64,000 bases of DNA, taken from assembly GCF_000613805.1 (NCBI RefSeq), contig NZ_BAJR01000013.1:1-64000 (forward strand), in the 5' to 3' direction. Positions 12,228-14,387 of this stretch are shown here, one piece after another; the first letter of the stretch is position 1, and each line of letters starts with the position of its first letter. A model generated the notes under the pieces. The model was given only the letters and a program-made list of their open reading frames with translations, had not been told where the DNA came from and searched no databases. The position numbers and the translations under genes are program-made. The DNA is from Phocaeicola paurosaccharolyticus JCM 15092 (GTDB taxonomy: Bacteria > Bacteroidota > Bacteroidia > Bacteroidales > Bacteroidaceae).

Positions 12228-12460
12228 AGTAATAAATTACAAAGTGTTATTAGAAATATTAGTAGTTAAATTTTTGAACAAAGGCTCATGAAAATATTAT
12301 ATAAAAAAGCTTTTAGTGTCATAAAATCTAAATTAATAGATGAATGCATTTTTATATTTATTGAGCAAATGTAAATAAAAATTTATAGAAATAATATTTG
12401 TCGCTGCAACTCTTTTATTAATAGTAGTTGAGCTATTTATGATTATTCAATAAATATACT

Positions 12461-12468
12461 TATATTTG
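12461..12468 (+). promoter_or_regulatory. -7 promoter box of the queuosine operon
   Basis: TATATTTG lies about 40 nt before the riboswitch-like element, so transcription would start near 12475 and the whole aptamer would be in the leader. I see no -33 TTTG at the right spacing. Confidence 0.5.
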
Positions 12469-12507
12469 CAGCCGAAATAATAGACATCTGATGCCGTGAA
12501 TAGCGGT

Positions 12508-12540
12508 CGTGTATTCTAGATTAACCACGTAAAAAACAAG
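12508..12540 (+). promoter_or_regulatory. Putative preQ1-I riboswitch
   Basis: The 33-nt stretch just before the transporter start folds like the compact class I preQ1 aptamer. P1 is CGUG (12508-12511) with CACG (12526-12529). The loop holds CUAG (12516-12519), which can pair with CAAG (12537-12540) at the end of an A-rich tail. U12512 and C12525 sit where the known aptamer has its ligand-contacting U and specificity C. The tail ends 3 nt before the ATG, so ligand binding would mask the ribosome-binding region and control translation. All three downstream genes belong to the queuosine pathway, which supports the call. Confidence 0.72.
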
Positions 12541-12543
12541 AAA

Positions 12544-13233
12544 ATGAGTAAAAGTAACAACACTGTTTCTGTATCTTTCATGATACTTGGCATACTATTC
12601 TGTGTATGCTTAGTCGCTGCAAACCTCTTAGAGTCTAAAGTGGTCCAGATAGGGCAACTTACCGTAACAGCAGGTCTTGTGGTCTTCCCAATTTCTTATA
12701 TTATTAATGACTGTATAGCCGAAGTATGGGGCTTTAAGAAGGCACGTCTTATCATATGGATGGGTTTCCTGATGAACTTCCTTGTAGTTTTACTTGGACA
12801 GATAGCAATAATTCTTCCTGCTGCTCCTTTCTGGAAAGGTGAGGAGGGTTTCAATTTTGTCTTTGGCATGGCCCCAAGAATAGCAGCTGCAAGTCTGTTG
12901 GCTTTCCTTGTTGGCTCATTCCTTAATGCTTTCGTTATGAGTAAGATGAAAAAAGCCAGCAATGGTAAACATTTCTCTATTCGTGCTATTGCCTCTACTC
13001 TTGTTGGTGAGAGTGCAGATTCTTTAATCTTCTTCCCGATAGCCTTTGGTGGCCTTATTCCTATGGATGAACTTTTAAAGATGATGCTTATCCAAGCTAT
13101 TCTAAAGACTCTTTATGAGGTGATTATTCTTCCTGTAACCATAAAAGTGGTGAATTATATCAAGAAGGTTGATGGAAGTGATGTATTCGATGATAATATA
13201 TCATACAATGTATTGAAAGTAAAGGAGATTTAA
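12544..13233 (+). CDS. yhhQ: Queuosine precursor transporter (YhhQ/VUT family)
   Basis: This is a 229-residue integral membrane protein with about six hydrophobic segments. The family signature [18 protein letters not shown] is near residue 55 and [14 protein letters not shown] near 160. Members import queuosine precursors such as preQ0 or preQ1. It leads an operon with queC (4-nt gap) and queF, and its translation start is 3 nt past the preQ1-like aptamer, which fits feedback by the imported or synthesised base. Confidence 0.93.
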
Positions 13234-13237
13234 TTTC

Positions 13238-13921
13238 ATGAAAAATAGTGATGCGCTGGTCGTTTTCAGCGGAGGGCAGGATTCAACAACCTGTCTGTTC
13301 TGGGCCAAGAGAAGATTCAGAAAAGTATATGCTATAAGCTTTATCTATGGGCAGAAACATATCAGAGAGATTGAACTGGCAAAAACAATAGCCGATAAGG
13401 CCGGTGTAGATTTCCATGTCATCGATCTCTCTTTCATAGGAAACTTAGGAAAGAACTCTCTCACCGATACATCAATAAAGATGGATGAAGAGAAGCCTGA
13501 TGACACGTTCCCAAATACTTTTGTACCGGGACGTAATCTATTCTTTCTTAGTGCAGCAGCAGTATATGCTCGTGAAAAGGGAGTTAAGCATATAGTAACA
13601 GGAGTCTCTCAGACAGATTTCAGTGGATATCCTGATTGCAGAGATAACTTTATAAAGTCGCTGAACGTAACACTCAATCTTGCTATGGACGATCAGTTCG
13701 TTATTCATACACCATTAATGTGGATTGATAAAGCTCAGACATGGGCACTCGCTGATAAATTGGGAGTTATTGACCTTGTTCACAAGGAGACGCTGACATG
13801 CTATAATGGGATAGAAGGTGACGGATGTGGACATTGCCCTGCATGCAGGTTGCGTAGAGAGGGACTGGAAAGATATCTTGATAATAGAGAAGAGTATTTA
13901 AAAGAATATTATACAGAGTAA
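13238..13921 (+). CDS. queC: 7-cyano-7-deazaguanine (preQ0) synthase
   Basis: QueC converts 7-carboxy-7-deazaguanine to preQ0 using ATP and ammonia. The 227-residue protein has the PP-loop SGGQDSTTC near residue 10 and a C-terminal zinc site of four Cys in [19 protein letters not shown]. It lies between the transporter and queF in one tight operon and would share riboswitch-controlled transcript levels, though translational control acts directly only on the first gene. Confidence 0.97.
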
Positions 13922-13931
13922 TAATTTATTT

Positions 13932-14387
13932 ATGGAAAGAAGTGAAGAATTGACAATATTGGGTCGCAAGAGTGATTACAAGCAGGATTATGCACCCGAG
14001 GTATTGGAAGCTTTTGTTAATAAACATCAGGAAAATGATTATTGGGTAAGATTCAATTGCCCTGAGTTTACTAGTCTTTGCCCTATTACAGGACAGCCTG
14101 ACTTTGCAGAGATCCGTATCAGTTACCTTCCTGATGTTAAGATGGTTGAGAGCAAGAGTCTCAAACTATATCTTTTCAGCTTCCGTAACCATGGAGACTT
14201 TCATGAAGATTGTATAAACATAATTATGAAAGATCTTATAAAACTTATGGATCCAAAATATATTGAGGTGACAGGAATATTCACCCCTCGTGGAGGTATA
14301 TCAATCTATCCATATAGTAATTATGGCCGTCCAGGTACAAAGTATGAAGAACTGGCCATATATAGATTAAAAAATCACGATCTTTAA
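13932..14387 (+). CDS. queF: NADPH-dependent 7-cyano-7-deazaguanine reductase
   Basis: QueF reduces the nitrile of preQ0 to the amine of preQ1. This 151-residue protein is the short, unimodular form. It has the active-site Cys in [15 protein letters not shown] near residue 56 and the substrate-binding [20 protein letters not shown] near 77. It ends the operon. Its stop codon overlaps that of dnaX on the other strand by two bases, so no terminator separates the convergent genes. Confidence 0.97.

Follow-up and report, generated by a model that had tools for sequence, protein, structure and literature searches.

Positions 12508-12540 of the window, by which we mean the whole 64,000-nt stretch of DNA analysed here, contain a 33-nt element that we interpret, with a probability of about 0.88, as a Bacteroidales lineage variant of the type II-like class I preQ1 aptamer, working as an off-switch of translation. 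What we observe directly is how the element is built, that it is conserved and covaries, where it lies and that it accompanies queuosine genes. Judged from sequence, it is very likely a variant preQ1-like riboswitch of class I, and its most likely action is repression of translation; the ligand and the direction of control are what we infer.

Anatomy of the element and score with the standard model

The P1 helix comprises four Watson-Crick pairs (C12508-G12511 with C12526-G12529), as the original prediction had it, and is followed by U and then A, with AC preceding its 3′ strand (Table 1). U12512 occupies the position of a ligand-contact U in class I aptamers; together with C12525, it bears out the two ligand-contact letters that had been claimed, and the A-rich tail was found as well. 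The claimed CUAG/CAAG pseudoknot is present, but its pairing is not complete: the steps are C-G, U-A, A.A and G-C, giving three of four pairs with one mismatch. The 3-nt distance between the aptamer and the YhhQ start codon and the succession of YhhQ, queC and queF had been correctly anticipated, all three proteins scoring above their family cut-offs. The best protein matches come from Phocaeicola and related Bacteroidales, in keeping with the proposed Bacteroidales host. A pattern written from the window's subtype has a single match in the 64 kb and none in 100 dinucleotide shuffles.

Table 1 Coordinates of the element, its operon and the related coding-sequence genes
Feature	Position	Strand	Remark
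Promoter-like motif TATATTTG	12461..12468	+	fits TAnnTTTG
Small hairpin	12493..12507	+	5 pairs (two G-U), directly abutting P1; pattern scan
33-nt element	12508-12540	+	between promoter-like motif and yhhQ-queC-queF operon
P1 5′ strand CGUG	12508..12511	+	pairs with 12526-12529
U12512	12512..12512	+	directly after P1; present in 61/61 distinct rows of alignment A5
P2 5′ strand CUAG, loop	12516..12519	+	pairs with 12537-12540, one A.A step
C12525	12525..12525	+	before P1 3′ strand, specificity position; preceded by A
P1 3′ strand CACG	12526..12529	+	pairs with 12508-12511
A-rich tail UAAAAAA	12530..12536	+	-14 to -8 relative to ATG
P2 3′ strand CAAG	12537..12540	+	ends 3 nt before ATG 12544
yhhQ-type queuosine precursor transporter	12544..13233	+	TIGR00697, 124.5 bits, cut-off 50.95
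queC	13238..13921	+	TIGR00364, 270.2 bits, cut-off 150.3
queF (QueF-II, preQ1 synthase)	13932..14387	+	TIGR03139, 166.9 bits, cut-off 86.9
Coding-sequence genes L262-L272, L285, L287-L289, L293, L294, L296, L297, L311, L318	codons 3-12 of yhhQ

The whole window gave no match to Rfam at gathering scores. The covariance-model check that the original prediction proposed came out negative: in a permissive search of 12300-12700, RF00522 scored 16.2 bits at the site against a cut-off of 39 bits, which is a database gathering threshold and no biochemical property, so there was no significant match. The alignment nevertheless runs end to end over the site (12503-12545), which is the best of eight RF00522 matches in the host genome, all at noise level. 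None of 80 homologous loci reached the cut-off, and across 394 Bacteroidota genomes it was exceeded in one (G107, locus L161), with 50.7 bits; that match precedes a YhhQ equivalog and carries, by eye, the type I marks UU and UC.

Models built from relatives and distribution in Bacteroidales

The 80 loci, which are the best 80 of 351 YhhQ-protein matches in named genomes, belong mostly to Phocaeicola, Bacteroides, Parabacteroides and Tannerella. Two subtypes of the element occur upstream of yhhQ, one pairing CUAG or CCAG with CAGG or CAAG and the other pairing CUUG with CAAG; the Bacteroides/Phocaeicola subtype is nearly identical in sequence. A covariance model, R1, was trained solely on CUUG/CAAG sequences, 12 in number, to the exclusion of the window's subtype, and recognized the window with an E-value of 3.9e-6 over 565 kb. 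This match, together with the conserved pairing described below, supports the reading as a preQ1-I-like riboswitch from which the analysis started. With stricter filters, the window site was the only one in the host genome at E ≤ 0.1. Over 81 sources (the window and the 80 loci), R1 produced 75 matches, one per source, and no further match at E ≤ 1. Six loci went unmatched: in L027, L032 and L065 the element has a longer tail, L047 lacks its upstream sequence, and L055 and L073 show no intact element.

In broader searches, R1 matched 84 of 393 genomes of the order at E ≤ 0.05 and 53 of 394 genomes of the phylum at E ≤ 0.1, with all matches at E ≤ 1e-3 lying in Bacteroidales. Run blind to genes over the 393 order genomes, the model marked 68 places at E ≤ 1e-3, of which 67, the window included, precede yhhQ, queC or queD, the exception being L175. 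Matches weaker than 1e-3 are mostly chance: no such gene lies behind, for example, L158, L163, L164, L170, L178, L195 and L201, nor behind L204, L205 and L215-L220 or behind L159 and L160 of the phylum search, and yhhQ, queC or queD does lie behind L157, L193, L194, L202, L203 and L221.

Collected and aligned, the elements number 135 distinct sequences including the window (141 rows, six being the same sequence under two locus identifiers); 120 stand before yhhQ, 13 before queC and one before queD, in addition to the window, in a set that was partly hand-chosen: 80 loci were entered for alignment because they had been judged to hold an element, so that their link to que genes is partly by choice, a bias from which the 67 of 68 places of the gene-blind search are free. 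Several genomes carry a second strong copy before queC or, once, queD. At L155 (genome G391), the element lies directly before a queD that exceeds the TIGR03367 cut-off.

The element is not universal in front of yhhQ. Forty extra yhhQ 5′ ends were hand-selected from those order genomes in which R1 had found nothing at yhhQ: 11 hold the coding-sequence type described below, five are leader variants (L222, L223, L229, L238 and L244), and 24 showed no element by eye or in a loose scan, whose rate in shuffled sequence was 70/880. The loose scan of these ends also returned L241, at a spurious place, and L256, and four further yhhQ 5′ ends (L278-L281) showed no element by eye. The element is lost or absent in L055 of the 80 loci and in L224 and L236 of the 40 extra ends, the proteins of the latter two resembling the window's YhhQ. 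By eye, the A-rich tail of L223 and L229 is set apart from the P1 3′ strand by an insertion that seems to form a hairpin; L073 perhaps has the same insertion, and no clear P1 5′ strand. Viral contigs yielded neither a relative of the transporter nor the coding-sequence pattern.

Conservation of pairing and covariation

Pairing is conserved in homologous operons, as the original prediction expected, with changes on both sides in P1 and in P2. In alignment A5 (81 sequences, 61 distinct rows), 98.9% of cells are paired and 25 cells are changed on both sides; none of 500 shuffles was as high on any of five measures, and sliding the partner strand lowers pairing to 19-72%. Across relatives, pair 1 of P1 is C-G, A-U or U-G and pair 3 is U-A or A-U, and P1 cells are paired in 100% of cases both in A5 and in alignment A7. 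For P2, the paired fraction is 97.8% in A5, where two of four pairs changed on both sides (rows L040, L173, L174 and L177 are gapped at P2 and not counted there), and 97.0% in A7, where three of four did. The AC before the P1 3′ strand occurs in all 61 distinct A5 rows, with a single exception outside A5 (L244, CC), and the A-rich 3′ tail is present in the aligned relatives.

The alignments differ in what they favor. A5 and A4 were aligned by a model that contains P1, so that P1 pairing is favored, and both misplace the loop of some rows of the window's subtype. A7 was aligned without such a model; it is gapless and consists of 20 leader and five coding-sequence elements picked for equal length. 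In A7, 98.5% of cells pair and both partners are altered in six of the eight pairs, although the number of pairs and the number of pair types were reached by 130 and 105 of 500 shuffles, respectively. Since the change in A7 is largely a single between-group difference, it indicates two families with one architecture rather than many independent events. A MAFFT alignment, A1, shifted P1 by two letters between the subtypes and was left out of the counts. Searching 1.21 Mb of element-rich DNA with a structural descriptor gave 54 distinct strings, every one of which starts with a P1 sequence belonging to this family, compared with 0.33 hits per Mb in mononucleotide shuffles; its rules postdate the sight of both groups and require four of four P2 pairs, of which the window has three.

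The CCAG forms with CAAG (L040, L173 and L174) have two non-pairing P2 steps and the window has its A.A step, so that P2 is weaker in the window's subtype, where an alternative register is possible. Pseudoknots with altered letters and wholly or mostly retained pairing were also seen, namely AUUG/CAAU in L193, L238 and, by eye, L244; L194 has AUAG/CUAG with one non-pair.

Start codons, promoter motif and initiation signals

An ATG lies at most 12 nt downstream in 129 of the 135 distinct elements, including the window. This position and a pattern scan of 12400-12800, which found no terminator-like site 3′ of the aptamer and had its sole match in the upstream hairpin, fit the translational control that was originally proposed. 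The other six elements (L166, L167, L169, L186, L209 and L210) all precede queC, from which L167 is about 170 nt and the other five 68-85 nt away, without an adjacent start codon, so that occlusion of the start site cannot be direct there; examined by eye and folded singly, these leaders showed no switch-like platform and no shared terminator.

TAnnTTTG, the Bacteroides -7 promoter motif, occurs within 150 nt upstream in 114 of 129 elements (shuffles: mean 10.9, maximum 18), at distances of 4 to 142 nt. In the window, a transcript would start some 6-8 nt past this motif. A perfect stem of at least five pairs ending 0-3 nt 5′ of P1 accompanies 83 of 129 elements, compared with a mean of 19.3 and a maximum of 30 in mononucleotide shuffles, a count that includes many close relatives with an identical hairpin and is uncorrected for kinship. 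Such a hairpin may stack on P1 or shield the 5′ end. Its sequence varies between elements. Nested RNA folding gave the leader a stability no greater than that of shuffles, as expected for a leader that is open without ligand.

Bacteroidia ribosomes are reported not to recognize the Shine-Dalgarno sequence and instead to use adenines at -3, -6, -12 and -13 together with low structure (PMC9976891), and a weak AGGA has virtually no effect in Flavobacterium johnsoniae according to the same source. The window has A at all four of these positions; among 129 elements, A is found at -12 in 124, at -13 in 113, at -3 in 74 and at -6 in 68. Strong Shine-Dalgarno-like strings occur in 26 of 129 elements and AGGA in 53 of 129. 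Aptamer tail and initiation signal thus coincide in most of their letters, a hint at how ligand binding would act on translation, with the tail adenines, not a Shine-Dalgarno sequence, as the signal that would be occluded.

In the proposed mechanism, the 5′ end of the mRNA would be weakly structured at low preQ1 and the A-rich stretch before the ATG would be free, allowing translation of yhhQ, behind which queC and queF follow in the operon. As preQ1 builds up, the ligand would pair with C12525 in a pocket between P1 and P2 and lock the tail and CAAG into an H-type pseudoknot. The pseudoknot would hide the adenines at -12, -13 and -6 and bring a compact fold to within 3 nt of the start codon, and through both effects initiation would fall.

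A coding-sequence form in yhhQ-queL genes

In 21 yhhQ genes (Table 1), the same architecture occupies 30 nt inside the open reading frame, at codons 3-12, which read AAG GTW NYG GAM AAC CCT TTM AAA AAC CGA. The corresponding RNA has a P1 of AAGG/CCUU, the U, a P2 of UCGG/CCGA, the AC and a tail of UAAAAAA or UCAAAAA, with the spacing of the short leader form. Eleven of these genes, found by a TIGR00697 protein search without use of the motif, are those among the 40 extra 5′ ends that form one YhhQ subfamily (at least 30 bits from residue 13 on, compared with at most 21 for the rest), and all 11 members of that subfamily have the element. The ten further genes were collected with a model, R2, and a sequence pattern.

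Synonymous codon choice in this stretch is strongly constrained. Where the 11 genes share an amino acid, they use the same codon in 484 of 512 comparisons (94.5%) in codons 3-12 and in 210 of 210 in codons 9-12, which lie outside the search pattern, versus 3230 of 7667 (42.1%) in the rest of the open reading frame, where the highest of 202 four-codon windows reaches 75.2%. For all 21 genes, the identity is 94.5% in codons 3-12 versus 41.4% elsewhere, a value inflated in codons 3-8 because the genes were collected with a pattern for those codons. Codon 5 encodes Ser in 17 genes, Thr in two, Leu in one and Ala in one, and its third base is G throughout, with C as the second base in 20 genes. The codons ACG (twice), GCG and TTG at this position break or weaken the outer P2 pair in four genes.

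All 21 genes have in-frame stops upstream of the ATG, with a possible in-frame start before the stop in two, and translation likely starts at the assigned ATG; most genes have further in-frame start codons after the element. In six of them, TAnnTTTG starts 25-32 nt upstream of the ATG. In 19 of 21, queL (queuine lyase) follows as the next gene, and the L262 queL product aligns over its full length with the solved queuine lyase 6p78 (E 8.6e-46). A QueL protein search found the enzyme in three of 237 order genomes, all three having the coding-sequence element. Genome G467 contains both a leader-type and a coding-type yhhQ.

What speaks for this form is the synonymous constraint, the architecture in common with the leader elements and the gene context. 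Within the group, covariation is almost absent, and RF00522 gave no match at E ≤ 3 in 20 short loci (including ten coding-sequence loci and five leader variants), so that the standard model lends the coding-sequence form no support. Taken together, codons 3-12 are probably a preQ1 riboswitch, whose bound pseudoknot, beginning at +7, would block initiation of yhhQ-queL, and preQ1 that QueL makes from queuine would thus shut off its own salvage.

Alternative explanations

An element with the same fold and control could have preQ0 or queuine, not preQ1, as its physiological ligand. The controlled genes handle several 7-deazaguanines, and QueC makes preQ0. Members of the YhhQ (QPTR) family also differ in substrate (PMC11130926). 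We nevertheless regard another ligand as improbable: the U, the AC and the tail letters fit class I type II, which recognizes preQ1 (PMC11625349), and preQ1 is the product both of QueF, encoded in this operon, and of QueL in the coding-sequence cases (PMC11130926). Slightly less probable still is an action on transcription, through termination or pausing, or on mRNA stability, a reading to which the six of 135 elements lying 68 to about 170 nt before queC and the small hairpin that often abuts the 5′ side of P1 would lend themselves; against it stand the lack of a terminator-like site after the aptamer in 12400-12800 and, by eye and in single folds, of a common terminator in the six far leaders.

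The near-identity of the Bacteroides/Phocaeicola subtype would also be expected of a protein-binding operator or a conserved promoter or leader sequence in which the pairing is incidental. That reading is already disfavored, and we consider it very improbable, given that both strands of P1 and of P2 vary while remaining paired, that the promoter motif lies anywhere from 4 to 142 nt away, and that the same architecture recurs within coding sequence.

Relation to known preQ1 riboswitches

The window element is closest to preQ1 class I type II (RF00522), represented by the Thermoanaerobacter tengcongensis and Bacillus subtilis aptamers. Both have a short P1, AC before the P1 3′ strand, an A-rich tail, a loop-tail pseudoknot and queuosine genes, and both have the U after P1, a ligand contact in class I; the A.A step in the window's P2 is comparable with the tengcongensis aptamer. 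The AC is described as a type II mark (PMC11625349). Unlike type II, the Bacteroidales family falls below the RF00522 cut-off at all 80 loci, has lineage-specific P1 and P2 sequences, belongs to a host group without Shine-Dalgarno pairing, and includes members with a tail insertion (L223 and L229) or located inside an open reading frame. Type I shares the class and the gene context (compare G107) but is marked by UC ahead of the P1 3′ strand and by UU behind P1, whereas the window family has AC (61/61) and the window U-A (PMC11625349). Type III, known from E. coli, agrees in the AC at the specificity site and in its occurrence in bacteria using yhhQ; it differs in being almost confined to Pseudomonadota and in having UU after P1, and its own features are a pyrimidine-rich stem-loop and an AAGG that is buried as the Shine-Dalgarno sequence (PMC11625349).

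Class I preQ1 riboswitches were already known from the phylum, types I and II having been reported from Bacteroidota according to PMC11625349, which cites McCown 2014; in the genomes covered by PMC3766115, preQ1 switches are mostly limited to Firmicutes. A transcriptome study of B. thetaiotaomicron that used Rfam lists three TPP riboswitches, with preQ1 absent from its main text (PMC7366714), and has among its references a preprint on transcriptional or translational control by TPP riboswitches in Bacteroides, so that translational riboswitches in Bacteroides are not new either. Synthetic intragenic riboswitches are referenced in PMC9495366, and a thin search of the open-access literature found no natural preQ1 riboswitch within coding sequence.

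Implications

The window element extends a well-studied riboswitch class to the queuosine operons of many Bacteroidales, where it is invisible to the standard model. A 2024 review (PMC11625349) names riboswitches in mRNAs without a Shine-Dalgarno sequence as a future challenge, for which the leaders described here are ready-made test cases. The coding-sequence form, which lies outside the window, is the more surprising part: if it binds preQ1, it would be a natural riboswitch written in codons and tied to queuine salvage, and the N-terminus of the protein would be dictated by RNA.
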